A stretch of 46,863 bases of DNA from a virus. Under the pieces are notes generated by a model. That model saw only the letters and a list, made by a program, of their open reading frames with translations, did no database searches and had not been told where the DNA came from. A program made the position numbers and the translations under genes. Positions 10,090 to 18,609 of the stretch are shown here, in pieces; positions within the stretch are counted from its first letter, which is position 1, and the number at the start of each line of letters is the position of its first letter. The stretch spans positions 1 to 46,863 of the IMG/VR virus record IMGVR_UViG_3300043409_000405. One strand, given 5' to 3'.

Positions 10090-10168
10090 TGGTGGGGCTG
10101 TGCGGGACTCGAACCCGCATTTGATGGTTTATCAACCCATCGTTCTATCCAGTTAAACTAACAGCCCC
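10090..10168 (-). tRNA. tRNA, probable Ile (anticodon GAT), 8-bp acceptor stem
   Basis: A full cloverleaf can be drawn on the minus strand. The acceptor GGGGCTGT (10168-10161) pairs with ACAGCCCC (10101-10094), followed by A73 and an encoded CCA. The D arm is GTTT/GAAC with A14, GG and A21. The anticodon loop is TTGATAA, and the T arm GCGGG-TTCGAGT-CCCGC is perfect. The GAT anticodon, with A37, A38 and A73, fits isoleucine. Two oddities stand out: the acceptor stem has eight pairs instead of seven, with position 8 (T) and 9 (A) still canonical, and the last anticodon-stem pair is G31-A39. It is the first element of the leftward late transcript. Confidence 0.85.
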
Positions 10169-10169
10169 T

Positions 10170-10205
10170 ACGCAGTAGTATAACACAGAAAGTGTAATAT
10201 CCAGT
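10170..10205 (-). promoter_or_regulatory. Candidate late promoter (extended -10) in front of the tRNA
   Basis: On the minus strand, TGTTATACT gives an extended -10 element (TATACT at 10182-10177 with TG one base upstream). Transcription would start at about 10170, almost at the tRNA 5' end. No good -35 is seen; that zone overlaps the 25-bp palindrome at 10204-10228. Sigma-70-type recognition is inferred. Confidence 0.5.
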
Positions 10206-10228
10206 AGTTGAGAACAGTTCTCAACTAC
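10204..10228. promoter_or_regulatory. Perfect 25-bp palindrome, candidate operator
   Basis: Two perfect 12-bp arms (GTAGTTGAGAAC and its complement) flank a single central A. It lies just upstream of the candidate late -10 element, where a regulator would overlap the -35 region. There is no T-run, so a terminator is unlikely. Binding by a host or phage regulator is inference. Confidence 0.6.
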
Positions 10229-10257: not shown

Positions 10258-10614
10258 GTTGCCGTAGGCAACAGCAGAACAGCAGAGATGTAACAAGATG
10301 TAACAGTAGTAGCTATTAGGGTTTATAGGTAGTATTTTATATATATATAACTAGTTATATCTATAACAGTAGTTATATGTTCTTTTATAGGTATTGTTGT
10401 TTATATACAACAGTTATTACTATAAGTAGTAACATAACAACATATACCTCCCCTATATTATAAAACTATATAAATCGTTATAAGGTACTATATATAATAT
10501 ATATAAGCATGCTTTTTGCTCCCCCCTACCCCTAAATATAGTCAGGCTGTACTGTGAGTGAGCACTCACCCCTCCCCCTAACATGTTGTATTGTTGGGTG
10601 TTATAGCACCAACA
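10258..10614. other. AT-rich divergent control region with palindromes (possible origin or promoters)
   Basis: No gene is seen. It holds a 6-bp hairpin GTTGCC/GGCAAC at 10258-10272, two tandem AGATGTAACA at 10286-10305, and a long TA-rich stretch (about 10320-10510). Within the latter are a perfect 16-bp palindrome at 10345-10360, AGTTATAT twice (10353-10360, 10371-10378) and TGTTGT/ACAACA arms at 10395-10412. After a C-rich patch come inverted repeats GTGAGTG/CACTCAC (10554-10569) and TGTTGGGTG/CACCAACA (10592-10614). An easily melted segment between two divergent units would suit a replication origin or early promoters; neither is demonstrated. Confidence 0.45.
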
Positions 10615-10637: not shown

Positions 10638-10790
10638 TCAATTGGTATCGTTATCTCCCCCTGAATCTACACTTCAACCCAATACCTAAGCCAAGGCTAA
10701 TACCAAACTTCAAGGTCAACACCTAACGTCAACAGGCAACTGCTACGCAACCTCTCACTCCTCAGGCAGCGAGTGCGATACCTGCTCTTC

Positions 10791-10859
10791 GCTCAACACC
10801 AACTGCAATCGCTCGGGCGGTAACAGGGCTAGGCGTTGCTCAACACCAACTTCCATCGC
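10791..10859 (+). repeat. Direct repeat of about 22 bp, two copies
   Basis: The segments starting at 10791 and 10838 share GCTCAACACCAACT followed by a near-identical CATCGC/AATCGC tail (20 of 22 positions by eye), 47 bp apart. A shorter TCAACACC also occurs near 10717. Purpose unknown; they lie at the 5' edge of the structured region and could be protein-binding iterons or part of the RNA. Confidence 0.6.
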
Positions 10860-11456
10860 AAGCCAGCCCATCGCCCGCTGTCCATCGGGTCACACCTGCG
10901 GGCCACACTCCACGGGCAAGTGGCTTCCCCGCCCAACATCGGGCGGGATCAGCCTCATGTCCCGTGAGTGCGGGGAATCTCCTGTGTTCCGTAGGGGATT
11001 CGTCCGTGCACGAGCGTACTTTCCCTTCCAGATGCTCAGTCAAGGGTCAGTCCACGCGACTTACATGGCCGCCTTCGGCGGAGTTGTCCACGCCCACATA
11101 CACCAACACCGTGGGCTACCGGCTCGTCAACTTTCCCGTTGGGAAAGTTAAGACCGCGAGCCTGACAACAGGTCTTGGCACTCCGAGCCTTTCGGCTCGG
11201 GTGACTTCGGTAGTCCAACTACGGACTACCTACGAGTAGCCGCTGGCTGACCGTGGGTGGCAAGCCAGATTCCCCAAGTCGGGCCAGCAAGCTGGCCTTG
11301 ACTTGTTAGCTGCTCCGCAGCTGGGGAATCACCCCGCTTGCCCTTCCACGACTCAACTCGCGTTGCGAGTCTCGCCCTTGACAAGAGCATCAGGAAGTGA
11401 GTACTTCGTGCCCCGTCGAATTCCCCTACTACACTCTGTAGGGCGAACTGATCGAC
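10858..11456 (+). ncRNA. Candidate large structured non-coding RNA or early leader
   Basis: No plausible protein gene occurs here, but helices are dense. Paired segments are 10928-34/10941-47; 10975-82/10994-11001 with one U-G; 11023-27/11042-46; 11069-73/11077-81; 11121-26/11157-62 enclosing a perfect 9-bp hairpin 11129-37/11141-49; 11183-89/11194-200; 11209-16/11223-30; and 11243-48/11263-68. A three-way junction closed by 11268-75/11323-30 holds hairpins 11276-80/11300-04 with 11282-87/11292-97, and 11308-13/11317-22. Then come 11356-61/11365-70, 11394-98/11403-07, and 11415-19/11452-56 enclosing 11424-29/11438-43. G-U pairs favour the plus strand. It ends just before the ribosome site of the first early gene. 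Its ends and function are not known; large ornate phage RNAs such as GOLLD and ROOL are the nearest concept, without claimed homology. Confidence 0.55.
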
Positions 11457-11483
11457 ACCTTGTAGTCTTTTAGGAGCATTGCT

Positions 11484-11744
11484 ATGACCACGCAATCGTT
11501 TGACATGAAGAAGGCTGTTGCTGAAGTGCCCGGCCCGCTGGCGTTCTGGATGGGGCTGTCGATGGTGAAGGCGGCAACCGCCAATGCTTACAGCTACAAC
11601 AAAGACCGCTTCGAGAAGCTGGCAGCGATCTGCGATGAACTGCAAATCATCGCTAACGAAATGAAGGCGGAGAAGGAGCAGCGGCTTAAGGCGGCTGCTG
11701 ACCGCACCGCACAAGCAGCGGCAATTGCGGCTGGTAAGGCGTAG
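11484..11744 (+). CDS. First early gene; small helical protein of unknown function
   Basis: The 86-residue product starts at ATG 11484, with AGGAG at 11471-11475. It has a short hydrophobic segment (GPLAFWMGLSMVKAATANAY, about 17-36), then a helical E/K-rich part and an Ala-rich tail (TAQAAAIAAGKA). Composition is more GC-rich than in most early genes. It is the first gene after the structured region and is followed by a GAAA-capped hairpin. Early first genes of lytic phages often act on the host, but nothing here identifies a target. Confidence 0.75.
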   Translation: MTTQSFDMKKAVAEVPGPLAFWMGLSMVKAATANAYSYNKDRFEKLAAICDELQIIANEMKAEKEQRLKAAADRTAQAAAIAAGKA

Positions 11745-11753
11745 TAGAAGCAG

Positions 11754-11777
11754 AGGGGGTGGCGAAAGCCACCTCTT
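11754..11777 (+). other. GNRA-capped hairpin after first early gene
   Basis: AGGGGGTGGC and GCCACCTCTT pair over 10 bp with two G-U pairs around a GAAA tetraloop. The loop and G-U pairs point to plus-strand RNA. No T-run follows, so a processing, stabilising or pausing role is more likely than strong termination. A second weak stem GCCC/GGGC follows at about 11786-11802. Confidence 0.6.
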
Positions 11778-11804
11778 CGGCATTGGCCCAACATCTCCGG
11801 GCTG

Positions 11805-11818
11805 TGTTCTTAATAACA
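11805..11818. promoter_or_regulatory. TGTTCTTA-type inverted repeat
   Basis: TGTTCTTAATAACA is a 14-bp inverted repeat with one mismatched pair, 12 bp before the start of a 37-residue gene. It is related to perfect copies at 12761 and 14357. It could be an operator or small hairpin; the function is inferred only from recurrence. Confidence 0.4.
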
Positions 11819-11830
11819 TGGGAGTTAGCT

Positions 11831-11944
11831 ATGATCTCGAACCTGATGTACAAGCTTATGGCAAGGGCTGAAATCAATGCCAAGATCAACGCGGGTAATA
11901 CCGAGTATGACTCTTGGAGCTGGATATGCGCTACCACGTTCTAA
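11831..11944 (+). CDS. 37-residue early microprotein
   Basis: ATG at 11831 follows GGGAG at a 7-base spacing. The product MISNLMYKLMARAEINAKIN... ends in an aromatic segment SWSWICATTF. It overlaps the next gene by 19 bp, whose ribosome site lies inside it, so the two are probably coupled. It is too short for domain assignment; the function is unknown. Confidence 0.55.
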   Translation: MISNLMYKLMARAEINAKINAGNTEYDSWSWICATTF

Positions 11945-12207
11945 AGAAGGGCCACTTCGTGGCCTTAGTGGGTGCCAAAGAGGGGCTTAGTGACAGAGCC
12001 TTTGCTGATGGATACCGAATAGCACACCCGTACTTAACTATGGCAGAAGTACAAGAACTTGGCTATGATTGGGATGATCTGGTCTCAGTTAAGACCGAAC
12101 AACACTCTGAGTTTGCTAAGGTTGATCCTCCCGGTCAGAAGGAGTCGGCATTCAACGATAGCCCCGTGATGGACAGGAAGCCGAGAGGCTTCCGACCTGT
12201 GTACTAA
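11926..12207 (+). CDS. Small early protein of unknown function
   Basis: I choose ATG 11926 (MRYHVLKKGHFVALVGAKEG) because GGAG at 11916-11919 is well placed; a TTG start at 11914 would add four residues. The 93-residue product has a beta-type N-terminus, a central segment MAEVQELGYDWDDLVSVKTE that looks helical, and a disordered basic end (MDRKPRGFRPVY). No domain is recognised. It sits between a microprotein and a structured intergenic stretch. Confidence 0.65.
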   Translation: MRYHVLKKGHFVALVGAKEGLSDRAFADGYRIAHPYLTMAEVQELGYDWDDLVSVKTEQHSEFAKVDPPGQKESAFNDSPVMDRKPRGFRPVY

Positions 12208-12213
12208 AGGAGA

Positions 12214-12231
12214 GGCCAGCGAAAGCTGGCT
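12214..12231 (+). other. GNRA-capped hairpin
   Basis: GCCAGC-GAAA-GCTGGC is a perfect 6-bp stem with a GAAA loop, extended by one G-U pair. It lies 7 bp after a stop codon and is followed by TTCTTCCTC. It could be a weak terminator or an mRNA-stabilising hairpin on the plus strand. Confidence 0.6.
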
Positions 12232-12259
12232 TCTTCCTCATTTAGCCCTAAATCCAAGG

Positions 12260-12383
12260 GCAAGCCTCGGCCACGGTAGTACTGTGGCCTTCGTCTTGCT
12301 ACCACCCATAAAGGTAGAATAAGAAAGTGGGTTGGGCGCGTCGCCCACCCCGTTCCGGGGTGAGGGCGGGCGTCGCCCCCAAC
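12260..12383 (+). ncRNA. Structured intercistronic element, copy A
   Basis: Two composite hairpins precede the gene at 12399. Hairpin I has an outer stem GCAAG (12260-64)/CTTGC (12295-99) and inner stem GGCCAC (12269-74)/GTGGCC (12284-89). Hairpin II has outer GTTGGG (12331-36)/CCCAAC (12378-83) and inner CACCCCG (12346-52)/CGGGGTG (12356-62) with loop TTC. The arrangement is repeated in diverged form at 12714-12825. A leader or translation-control RNA is inferred. Confidence 0.55.
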
Positions 12384-12398
12384 CTGAGGAAATTTAAC

Positions 12399-12611
12399 AT
12401 GATGACTAATATCTACCTCATTACAGCGTTCATCAAAGATGTTAGCATTATCCTATTGTGCATCCTAGTACTCGGATACGTTACAGGTCGCGTTGAAGAG
12501 TTTACACCCTCCCGCACAGCTCTCATCGAAGAGCAAACCGGGTGCCATACCGATACCGAGTGCGAAGAAATGGAGGATTACCTTAATGCTCACAACATCT
12601 ACAGGATGTAA
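12399..12611 (+). CDS. Small single-pass membrane protein
   Basis: ATG at 12399 is preceded by GAGGA at 12386-12390; an upstream in-frame start at 12327 lies in the structured element and is rejected. The 70-residue product has one clear membrane helix (YLITAFIKDVSIILLCILVLGYVTG, about 5-29). An acidic cytoplasmic or periplasmic tail with two Cys (GCHTDTECEEMEDYLNAH) follows. The 3' end is duplicated in tandem (12599-12624). The role is unknown; an early membrane protein affecting the host envelope or superinfection is possible. Confidence 0.7.
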   Translation: MMTNIYLITAFIKDVSIILLCILVLGYVTGRVEEFTPSRTALIEEQTGCHTDTECEEMEDYLNAHNIYRM

Positions 12612-12713: not shown

Positions 12714-12825
12714 GGCAAGTCCCGCGCCCGTCCGGTGGCCGGTCACGGGTCTTGCTTCTGTGTTCTTAAGAACATAGAATGTGGTCGTCGGTCTCGGCCC
12801 GCCCCATTCGGGGCGAAGGCGGGCC
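12714..12825 (+). ncRNA. Structured intercistronic element, copy B
   Basis: It is arranged like copy A. Hairpin I has outer GCAAG (12715-19)/CTTGC (12751-55), inner CCCGT (12727-31)/ACGGG (12745-49), and an apical CCGG/CCGG. Hairpin II is GGCCC (12796-800)/GGGCC (12821-25) enclosing GCCCC/GGGGC (12801-05/12810-14) with loop ATTC. Aligning hairpin II with copy A shows an A-U pair in A replaced by a G-C pair here, and the inner stem of hairpin I differs in sequence but keeps pairing. It precedes the gene at 12862. Confidence 0.55.
12756..12779. promoter_or_regulatory. 24-bp palindrome with core TGTTCTTAAGAACA
   Basis: The 14-bp core (12761-12774) is a perfect palindrome, extended outward to 12-bp arms with one mismatched pair. 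It sits between the two hairpins of copy B. The same core occurs at 14357. It is a candidate operator or a cruciform-type site. Confidence 0.5.
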
Positions 12826-12861
12826 TCGTCCTCCTCTTAACCGTTGAAAAGGAAGAATAGA

Positions 12862-15632: not shown

Positions 15633-17417
15633 ATGATTACTAATTCCATAGAAGTAATGAAGTACGTTAAAGCCTCTGCCGGGAGAAGCAAACTGTCTGT
15701 TGTCTTTGAAGATGAGAATCATCCCCGGCATAATGGTTCTACTATCTTTCTACCCAAAATCACTGTTCACACTACCAAAGAACAGTTACTGGAGATGATG
15801 TCTAGTGTTGACCACGAAGTAGGTCATGATCTGGACAGTGACTTTGAGATTCTCAAAGAAAAGGGTATTGATGCTTCCAGTAGTCCCTTAGGACTGATCT
15901 GGAATCTCATAGAAGACTCAAGGGTTAACTACCTTCAAGCAATAGAGTACGAAGGTTTTAGAGAACTCTGGGAGAAAACAACACCAGCTCTTCTGGAAAA
16001 GATAGAAGTATCAACCAAGACTGCTGGGGGGGTTAACCCGCTAGTCAGAGCTATGATGAAGTGGGAAACTGAGTTGTCACGTAAGACGTTCCCGCTTTGT
16101 GCAGAACAAGTTCGAGAAATGGAAGTTGATGACAGCATTCTCAAAAAACTAATTCCTTTCTCAGACAGATTGATGGATGTCCAACGAATTAAACCCAAGG
16201 TTGCTGGTACCAAGGGTGCTTATGAGCTTGCTCGGGATATTTTCAGGGCATTAGGTGGTGATCCTGATGAAGAAGAACGCAAAGCAAAAGAAAGAATGGA
16301 AAAAGAAGAAGGAACACCCACAAAAGGAAAGGGAACACCACTAGAGCCGGGTAAAGAGAAAGGAGAGAAGGAAGGAGAAAAGACAGAAGGAGAGGCAGAA
16401 ACAGCAGAAGGAGATTGGTCTGTTGTTCGTATTACTCTTGAAGACCTGAAAGATGTTGCAGACAAACTTCTTTCATTAGATACGGTGGATCGTAAAAAGA
16501 TGTCAAAAGTAGGTTTGCTTTATGACGTTGATGTGGAAGAAACTGGTTGGTCAATGACTCCTCTAGAAAACTTTATGGTTGTGGATTACTGCAATGGAAC
16601 AACATCCCATAGTGAAGTTGCCTCTCTGCTATCTAGTGCAGACAGCGCGTGGTTCGTCGCCAGTCTAGAAGAAAAAGCCCACGTAGAGGCACAAGATAAC
16701 TTTGCAAATCAAGTTAGAAAGCTGATCCAAATACGAGCTAAATCTACCTTTGAGTACGGAGTTAAGCGGGGTAAGTTGGATTCAAGCAGGTTAAGTAGAA
16801 TTGCTCTTAGACAACCGGGTTTTAGTGAGCGTGTGTTTAAGAACAAAATAAACAACACAGTGTTAGATGCTTCAGTAAGTGTCTTGGTGGACATGAGTGG
16901 TTCAATGAGTGGTCAGAAAGTTCTTTATGCCACTCAAGCAGCGTTGTTACTTAACAACGTATTCCAAGTAATCCAAGTCCCTTTAGAAATTATTGGGTTT
17001 ACGGATTATGGTGACCGCCCAATACAGTACCTGTACAAACCATTTAGCAAACAAAAAGTACCCAGAGAACAATTGCTTGATTATTTTGCTGCCTCCTCTA
17101 ATAAAATGGCTGGAAATCCAGATGGGGATAGCATTATATGGGCTTTTGACCGTATAAAGAATAGGCCAGAAAAGAAGAAGCTGTTGATTGTGATGTCTGA
17201 TGGGCAACCTGCTGCAAGCAGATCTTCTAGGGGCCTAGGAAAATTTACTCGACAGGTAATAAAGGAAATTCAAGCCTCTAAAGTTGAAATATATGGTTTG
17301 GGGCTTTGTGATGAGTCTGTGTCAATGTTTTACACTCATCACTCGACAGTAAAAACAGCAGAAGAAATACCTCAAAAACTGCTAGAACTTATTGATAGGA
17401 AATTATTCCATGTCTGA
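15633..17417 (+). CDS. CobT/NorD-like VWA-domain protein with HEVGH motif
   Basis: The 594-residue product has three parts. At the N-terminus HEVGH (61-65), followed by NLIEDSRVNY (91-100), forms a zinc-peptidase-type HEXXH plus downstream acidic motif. A Lys/Glu-rich low-complexity linker spans about 210-260. A C-terminal VWA domain starts near 410 with the MIDAS motif DMSGS (420-424) and a later IVMSDGQPAAS. VWA proteins paired with MoxR-type ATPases remodel or metallate targets, e.g. CobT of cobaltochelatase and NorD (family knowledge). The next gene overlaps it by 8 bp and encodes that ATPase. The target here is unknown; a B12 link is speculative. Confidence 0.75.
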   Translation: MITNSIEVMKYVKASAGRSKLSVVFEDENHPRHNGSTIFLPKITVHTTKEQLLEMMSSVDHEVGHDLDSDFEILKEKGIDASSSPLGLIWNLIEDSRVNYLQAIEYEGFRELWEKTTPALLEKIEVSTKTAGGVNPLVRAMMKWETELSRKTFPLCAEQVREMEVDDSILKKLIPFSDRLMDVQRIKPKVAGTKGAYELARDIFRALGGDPDEEERKAKERMEKEEGTPTKGKGTPLEPGKEKGEKEGEKTEGEAETAEGDWSVVRITLEDLKDVADKLLSLDTVDRKKMSKVGLLYDVDVEETGWSMTPLENFMVVDYCNGTTSHSEVASLLSSADSAWFVASLEEKAHVEAQDNFANQVRKLIQIRAKSTFEYGVKRGKLDSSRLSRIALRQPGFSERVFKNKINNTVLDASVSVLVDMSGSMSGQKVLYATQAALLLNNVFQVIQVPLEIIGFTDYGDRPIQYLYKPFSKQKVPREQLLDYFAASSNKMAGNPDGDSIIWAFDRIKNRPEKKKLLIVMSDGQPAASRSSRGLGKFTRQVIKEIQASKVEIYGLGLCDESVSMFYTHHSTVKTAEEIPQKLLELIDRKLFHV

Positions 17418-18609
17418 CCTCAGTACTAAATCCCTTGGCGAACTACTTAAGGAAAAGATTATGACCTCACCAGTACCTATTACTCCTGCTCCCATTGAAG
17501 ACTTGGTTAAATCCGCAATCAAGGATGCTTTGGCTAAAAGGGCAGTAACAGAAGGAAAAGAGTTTGTACCTGATGACGCAACTATGGCTTCTTTGGAAGC
17601 TATGGAAAAGTCCTTGGTACCTCCTCCCACACTACCAGTTGTTCCCGTACACACTCTGAAAGACGGTCAAGTATGGGCTTCAGACCTCTTTAAACGAGTT
17701 ATGAGCATATCCAAGAAAGATGACTTCCCTGTCTCAATCTTCAAACCTGAGGATTTTGATGAGAAAATCAGGATGTTTATACCTAAAGTTGATCCTACTT
17801 ACGTTCTTGATAAAAAGAACAGCATCAACATCCTGAAAGCATGGGAACAGAATGACAAAACATTGCTCTATGGCCCGACAGGTGCTGGTAAGAGCAGCCT
17901 TCCACAGATGCTGTGTGCTTACGTCTGTAGGCCGTTTTTTCGTATTAACTGTACTGAAGACATGGATAGTTCAATGATCTTTGGACAGTTGACAGCTTCT
18001 GATGGTTCTACTCCTTGGGAAGATGGCCCTGTTACTGAAGCTGTAAAGTACGGTGCTGTGTTTGCTTGGGATGAGTGGGATGTTACCCCTCCGGGTATTG
18101 CAATGGGTCTCCAGTGGCTTCTGGAAGACGATGGCAAGCTCTTTTTGAAAGAGAAGCCGGGAGCTGCCAAGGACAAGTTTATTGTCCCAGATAGCAAGTT
18201 TCGTCTTATGGCTCTTGGTAACACCCAAGGTCAAGGTGACGACACTGGGCAGCATACAGGTACCAACGTACAGAACACAGCTACCATTGACCGCTTTGGT
18301 ACTACGCTCCGCATCGGCTATATGAAAGAAGATGTGGAAGTGAAGATGCTCTGTGGCAAATTTACTGATCTTGCTAAAGAAACTGTCCTTAAGCTTGTAA
18401 GGTTTGCCAATCTGGTTCGTCAAGGTTATACTACTAATCAGTTGAACCTTACCATGTCTCCAAGGTCTACTATTGGTATTTGCAAGAAGTTGTCGTATGG
18501 TCACACCATGCAAGAAGCAATCCAGCTTACCTACACAAACAAACTGGTGGAAACTCACCAAAAGGTAGCACTGGAACTGTATCGTAAAGTGTTTGGCTCG
18601 GCTGAGTAA
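17410..18609 (+). CDS. MoxR/CobS-like AAA+ ATPase
   Basis: ATG 17410 is preferred over a TTG at 17392 because AGGA lies at 17397-17400. The 399-residue protein has an N-terminal extension of about 120 residues. Then come Walker A GPTGAGKS (155-162), Walker B with AVFAWDEWD (Asp221-Glu222) and a sensor-1 region RLMALGNTQ (Asn271). Layout is that of the MoxR branch including CobS and NorQ. It overlaps the VWA gene by 8 bp, indicating a complex. CobS partners CobT and CobN in cobalt insertion; phage CobS-like genes are known, but function in phages is not settled. Primase follows 2 bp after the stop. Confidence 0.8.
   Translation: MSDLSTKSLGELLKEKIMTSPVPITPAPIEDLVKSAIKDALAKRAVTEGKEFVPDDATMASLEAMEKSLVPPPTLPVVPVHTLKDGQVWASDLFKRVMSISKKDDFPVSIFKPEDFDEKIRMFIPKVDPTYVLDKKNSINILKAWEQNDKTLLYGPTGAGKSSLPQMLCAYVCRPFFRINCTEDMDSSMIFGQLTASDGSTPWEDGPVTEAVKYGAVFAWDEWDVTPPGIAMGLQWLLEDDGKLFLKEKPGAAKDKFIVPDSKFRLMALGNTQGQGDDTGQHTGTNVQNTATIDRFGTTLRIGYMKEDVEVKMLCGKFTDLAKETVLKLVRFANLVRQGYTTNQLNLTMSPRSTIGICKKLSYGHTMQEAIQLTYTNKLVETHQKVALELYRKVFGSAE

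Follow-up and report, generated by a model that had tools for sequence, protein, structure and literature searches.

What is encoded by the DNA between the two divergent operons of this tailed phage? In the window (the whole stretch of 46,863 nucleotides that was analysed), positions 10858-11456 had been taken in an earlier, sequence-only reading for a large ornate RNA, either a new class or a long structured early leader, perhaps comparable to GOLLD and ROOL. An ornate RNA without an Rfam family is indeed what we find, and of the two options the leader is the better one; we saw nothing that links it to GOLLD or ROOL. A 5' leader is preferred because the structure stops just before a ribosome binding site (RBS) and an ORF, and because in relatives leader, ORF and intrinsic terminator form one plus-strand unit. 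We give close to an even chance to the following reading: the first early gene has this region as its 5' leader on the plus strand, leader and ORF together are one of a family of transcripts that fold on themselves, and the transcript is a translation-gated stable mRNA. What has been computed in this respect is the structure, its syntenic recurrence, the specificity of ORFs for their own leaders, the terminators and the regular interruptions of the helices.

The locus and its exchange between close relatives

The leftward operon contains a tRNA, terminase and portal genes. The rightward early operon has the 86-aa ORF as its first gene, and a DnaB-like helicase, a DNA polymerase and a ribonucleotide reductase are encoded further on. 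The element of the window lies at the divergent locus adjoining the terminase operon and upstream of the first early gene, as it does in the family (Table 1).

Table 1. Features at the divergent locus of the window (L002 to L005 are related phages)
Feature	Position	Strand	Basis and remarks
tRNA-Ile(GAT), start of late operon, neighbour only	10090-10168	-	ARAGORN; Rfam tRNA 61 bits
Promoter-like TATAAA-18-TATAAT in AT-rich divergent region	10469-10498	+	weak; same site in L004/L005; class not above chance
Cassette start / 5' leader segment	10684-10880	+	DNA comparison with L002/L003
Closing helix, across ORF stop codon	10740-10748 with 11739-11747	+	P 0.99 when ORF included in fold
Side arm 10814-10839/10858-10877	10814-10877	+	P 0.95-1.0
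Side arm with GC-rich hairpin 10928-10934/10941-10947	10906-10970	+	pairing probabilities
Rod 5' arm	10984-11047, partner 11374-11434	+	helices 4-9 bp, small internal loops
Rod 3' arm	11374-11434	+	pairing probabilities
Apical multi-branch domain	11048-11373	+	hairpins 11069-11081, 11092-11116, 11129-11149, 11183-11200, 11209-11230, 11356-11370
Three-way junction within apical domain	11268-11330	+	sits on stem 11252-11265/11336-11350
Shine-Dalgarno region, aggag 11472-11476	11472-11482	+	sequence
86-aa ORF, remote homologue of relatives' small helical protein	11484-11744	+	hhalign E 1.7e-5, prob 79
GC-rich 11-bp hairpin just after ORF; terminator position in relatives	11753-11778	+	no clear T run

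Phage copies of GOLLD and ROOL often have tRNAs close by, and a tRNA nearby on the other strand had been pointed out. The tRNA is there, yet it is part of the minus-strand late operon, and no tRNA is found at this place in relatives other than two close ones, L002 and L003. Among these near-identical phages the identity of the single tRNA varies: Ile(GAT) in the window and in L003 (4900-4977), Thr(AGT) in L002 (5081-5157).

The terminase of the window is 99-100% identical to those of L003 and L002 (99% for L003). Up to position 10683 the DNA identity with both phages is 76-78%; from 10684 there is no similarity until 12401. The entire cassette 10684-12400 is replaced between the window and these two phages. 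By analogy with immunity or incompatibility systems, such a swap of a whole cassette among phages that are otherwise almost the same may point to allele-specific selection.

Several other features of these genomes were observed. A gene pair at 15633-18609 of the window encodes a CobT-like and a CobS/AAA-like protein; the CobT-like protein is 77% identical to that of L003 versus 99% for the terminase, and the genomes are therefore mosaic. A near-perfect inverted repeat, GTAGTTGAGAACAGTTCTCAACTAC, occupies 10204-10228, with the tRNA on one side and the AT-rich divergent region on the other, and is found in L002 and L003 too. GC-rich intergenic hairpins occur among the early genes (window 12210-12380 and 12780-12830, L003 6718-6752, L002 6940-6974), one type of which, GGCCCGCCCC...GGGGCGAAGGCGGGCC, is common to the window and relatives. 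Folding of 12201-12400 of the window gives a z of about -7.

Structure of the leader in the window

The plus-strand fold of 10840-11490 (651 nt) has an energy of -310.9 kcal/mol. Dinucleotide shuffles of it reach -227.7 +- 7.7, which gives z -10.8, and none of 20 folds as well. Comparison with such controls had been proposed as a check on the sequence-only reading, and the real fold is far better. On the minus strand the same region gives z -9.95. When the whole record was scanned in 104 segments of 600 nt, the one at 10858 was the lowest on both strands, with an excess energy of -81 (plus) and -74 (minus) kcal/mol, the mean for the rest of the 46.9-kb record being -6 (sd 9). The z of about -11 and the top rank among the 104 segments bear out the claim that the structure is far above that of an ordinary leader.

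The domain is larger than 10858-11456, with limits at about 10684/10740-11474. It forms a strong plus-strand rod of 52 bp in all, capped by an apical domain of 326 nt (z -7 to -12 across fold tests). Most details predicted from the letters are recovered: about twenty helices of 5-9 bp have P>=0.9, among them the nine-pair hairpin 11129-11137/11141-11149, which is perfect, and the three-way junction, made up of 11268-11274/11324-11330 with 11275-11287/11292-11305 and 11307-11313/11317-11323. An exception is the hairpin proposed at 10980-10996. The minimum-energy fold does not contain it, and rod helix 10991-10998/11422-11429 is its competitor. At the 3' end, 11474-11477 and 11478-11482 pair into the ORF start (P 0.76 and 0.98).

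It had also been argued that G-U pairs mark the plus strand as the RNA. This argument fails because G-U pairs are below the shuffles on both strands (5% of pairs on plus and 7% on minus, against 9% and 14%).

The small ORF and its protein family

The window ORF aligns with the family protein over 69 columns (hhalign); the relationship is remote, with 18-24% identity. The family protein has about 75 aa; its ORFs, of 70-85 codons, stand directly after the leader or inside the 3' arm. The family search yielded 58 loci, and at least 57 contigs of related phages encode the small protein at this divergent locus. A three-helix structure is predicted for it (pLDDT 86). Pfam and PHROGs do not recognise the family, a Foldseek search of PDB with the three-helix model returned no significant match, comparison with viral models gave only uncharacterised phage proteins as homologues, and a search for the protein in genomes found none. 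With the window ORF as query, IMG/VR gave no match.

Homology with Acb2 / T4 Vs.4, the top Foldseek match, was rejected (E 1.7; hhalign prob 0.3), as were Rop-like and other helical folds, whose matches are not significant. In four further phages (L040, L033, L049 and L029) the same position is taken by a small ORF and leader that have diverged very far, which suggests many exchangeable allele types.

Rods and transcripts in relatives

A search with a diverse terminase alignment gathered 80 loci. The length folded at a time matters here: at 200 nt the leaders of relatives looked unstructured, while at 500 nt long-range structure appeared at the same locus in most of them, in the form of long imperfect rods. 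In 15 scanned relatives the rods measure 118-295 bp and their apical domains 140-250 nt; in others the rods are shorter. Across the family the leader measures 500-850 nt. Alcaligenes phage QDWS535 and ct2os315 were considered as rod carriers and have no comparable rod.

A hairpin common to the rod caps, YRCGCCAG...KCAYR, shows covariation: one of its pairs is A-U in 17 sequences and G-C in 10, and is broken in none. A covariance model of this apical hairpin finds matches at the same locus in further relatives. In the window there is no match to the YRCGCCAG...KCAYR pattern, and the model gives a sub-threshold match of 8.2 bits (E 0.15) at 11049-11071, covering the outer stem only.

An RBS, ORF and terminator are attached in nearly every family locus examined. 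A plus-strand intrinsic terminator lies within a few nt 3' of the ORF in 27 of 30 loci, and a minus-strand terminator to the left of the rod in 1 of 30; in a wider set, which overlaps the first, 54 of 56 loci have the plus-strand terminator after the ORF. Since the terminators directly follow the ORF, leader, ORF and terminator make up one plus-strand unit. The arrangement implies a discrete leader-ORF transcript, probably of roughly 1 kb. Sigma-70-type promoters are as frequent in the family as expected by chance. A TTGACA hexamer at -695 to -919 from the small ORF recurs in eleven relatives (L044, L045, L055, L065, L071, L072, L079, L080, L083, L086 and L087); it is a conserved -35-like hexamer upstream of the leader with a poor -10, and may belong to a phage-specific or activated early promoter.

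Could the RNA itself be the product, a large ornate machine or scaffold like GOLLD or ROOL, with the ORF as a partner protein or incidental? A structure so far beyond ordinary leaders, by shuffle z and as a record-wide outlier, would fit such a role, as would the conserved covarying apical hairpin and the alleles, the window included, that hold structure upstream of the ORF. We nevertheless regard this as unlikely: there is no Rfam match, the ORF comes with RBS and terminator in nearly every locus examined, and the rod tracks the sequence of the ORF.

Complementarity between leader and ORF

In about half of 30 loci the leader clearly repeats its own ORF in antisense, with interruptions. With Watson-Crick pairs only, complementarity scores average 88 between a leader and its own ORF, 31.6 with the ORFs of others and 28.4 +- 4.6 after shuffling. 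For the leader of L010, for example, the score is 240 with its own ORF but drops to 87 when the ORF of L009, its nearest relative, is put in its place. Among the strongest members, the leader pairs with 60-85% of the bases of the ORF. A freely decaying old inverted duplication predicts equal scores; the arms have therefore been updated together since the lineages split. An inverted paralogous gene as the source of the leader arm was rejected, its reverse complement having stops in all frames (one L004 frame partly excepted).

Complementarity is a feature of a subgroup. The score with the own ORF exceeds the shuffled maximum of 42 in 19 of 30 loci, and exceeds 45 in 20 of 56 loci of the wider set; complementarity clearly above chance is absent in the other 11 and 36, respectively. 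Where both partners have changed, the pair is retained in 50-52% of cases versus 36-38% in slid controls, a compensatory excess that is significant in sum and modest in size; single changes often break pairs, and the one-sided changes in L004/L005 do so mostly. Full pairing of the ORF is not essential, since single changes inside rods mostly break pairs and so many loci lack clear complementarity.

The window belongs with these loci. Complementarity between its leader and its own ORF is not above chance (score 38, shuffled maximum 42; fold tests z -2 to -2.9). It is a divergent family allele, with the structure mainly upstream of the ORF. No DNA homologues of its leader were found in phages, in plasmids or in an IMG/VR pattern scan, nor any relatives of this allele.

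Interrupted helices and the choice of strand

On the plus strand the helices are broken every 7-16 bp, and the longest have 7-16 bp. Random decay was simulated 40 times with identity and indels matched to the rods, and in each of 13 rods the run-length measure is lower than in every simulation. Third-codon (synonymous) drift of the ORF is ruled out as the source of this regular spacing, because mismatches are spread about equally over the codon positions.

This evidence bears on the idea that the rods have no RNA function and are mutational products: inverted copies of the ORF made by template switching, partly re-copied between the arms and then decaying. Close relatives do differ widely in complementarity, and the mostly pair-breaking changes in L004/L005 point the same way. 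Even so we consider it quite unlikely, as no rod is near-perfect, the mismatches are spaced more evenly than in simulated decay in all 13 rods, and neither the compensatory excess nor the conserved apical hairpin is accounted for; the window, where the fold hardly involves the ORF, would be left unexplained.

The composition of the mismatches concerns the strand. A.C mismatches are enriched (238 vs 166 expected) and G.U are not (79 vs 98.5 expected by composition). This fits interruption of a plus-strand duplex, because G.U would not interrupt it. The same rods read on the minus strand run up to 43 bp uninterrupted (L087), and in most relatives the more stable fold is that of the minus strand, e.g. 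-492 vs -289 kcal/mol in L044 and -558 vs -344 in L087, because A.C becomes G.U.

The functional molecule might also come from the minus strand, as an antisense RNA of the small gene that may serve as leader of the late operon. Its better folding would be explained, the non-Watson-Crick positions read G.U and G.A on that strand, and the A.C excess would also fit selected minus-strand wobble pairs. Against this, 29 of 30 loci have no minus-strand terminator left of the rod, long helices stay unbroken on that strand while the even spacing is clearest on plus, and the DNA upstream has few Gs in any case; measured against shuffles, the plus strand of the window is the stronger of the two. A minus-strand RNA as the main product is improbable on these grounds, a shade more so than purely mutational rods. 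The plus strand is favoured, mainly on the terminators and further on the pattern of helix interruption.

The position between divergent operons, beside AT-rich DNA, would also suit an element acting as DNA, such as a cruciform or a replication-origin structure to which the small protein would bind. In a DNA palindrome, however, A.C and G.T are equally disturbing, yet A.C is enriched and G.U is not, and the plus-strand terminators define a transcript. We judge such an element very improbable.

Comparison with known systems

Structured 5' leaders of early phage genes, attenuators and put-type antiterminator RNAs stand upstream of an early gene and have hairpins adjoining the RBS and the terminator. 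The present leaders differ from them in their 500-850 nt, in a whole-ORF complementarity that tracks changes of the ORF and in having no Rfam family.

At gathering thresholds the only Rfam match is the tRNA, with nothing relevant up to E=5, and the earlier reading had not asserted homology either; covariance models of GOLLD, ROOL, OLE and HEARO have no match in the window at either level. What the element shares with GOLLD, ROOL and OLE is a size of several hundred nt, multiple branching and a large extent of structure (PMC12286853). Unlike in those, the RNA here is joined to a small ORF, in many members in one long rod with it, and in contrast to GOLLD and ROOL a tRNA neighbour is absent in most relatives. 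A homo-oligomeric RNA cage is a further feature of GOLLD and ROOL.

Obelisks and HDV-like rods are likewise RNAs of about 1 kb that form a rod of interrupted helices with a small protein encoded inside (PMC11922315, PMC13096302). The rod described here comes from a tailed phage with a DNA genome and has a terminator, with no sign of circular or self-replicating RNA. An obelisk is a covalently closed RNA without DNA counterpart that encodes Oblin-1; here we have a DNA phage locus and an unrelated three-helix model of about 75 aa. Finally, cabRNA, which is sensed by CBASS, is also a structured transcript of tailed phages near the terminase; by its description it derives from the terminase genes of staphylococcal phages, which sets it apart from the present RNA (PMC10686824).

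A possible mode of action and its meaning

How might a leader-ORF transcript of this kind work? Transcription from the AT-rich divergent region would proceed through the leader arm, the GC-rich apical domain, the RBS and an ORF of 70-85 codons to the intrinsic terminator. The leader arm would then pair with the RBS and, in many members, with the whole ORF, giving a long rod with helices of about 7-16 bp. Such a rod would block both ribosome loading and RNase E. Bacterial RNase III favours long uninterrupted duplexes and RNase E favours single strands. The short helices would evade RNase III, and the result would be a stable, nuclease-resistant mRNA. Translation would take place only once the fold opens, or before it closes. 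The apical domain with its covarying hairpin is the putative place where the small helical protein, or a host factor, would bind and set the gate.

More broadly, though a little less confidently than for the window itself, we suggest a new class of phage RNA. In such an RNA the mRNA leader would copy its own coding sequence in antisense, with interruptions at regular intervals, and would be kept up to date with it continually; the rod with its apical recognition domain would keep the gene out of reach of ribosomes and nucleases as long as it is not needed, and cassettes would be exchanged whole. No description of an RNA element of this kind was found in the databases searched.

If this is correct, a coding sequence and its own untranslated leader coevolve in a DNA phage as the two strands of one interrupted duplex, a design otherwise familiar from the rods of HDV and obelisks. 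With the rods one could test whether duplex length is under selection in bacteria, where long double-stranded RNA would be avoided. There would be a new family of small proteins in at least 57 phage contigs, and with it an RNA family of lasting architecture that escapes current libraries, its sequence changing too quickly to be aligned.
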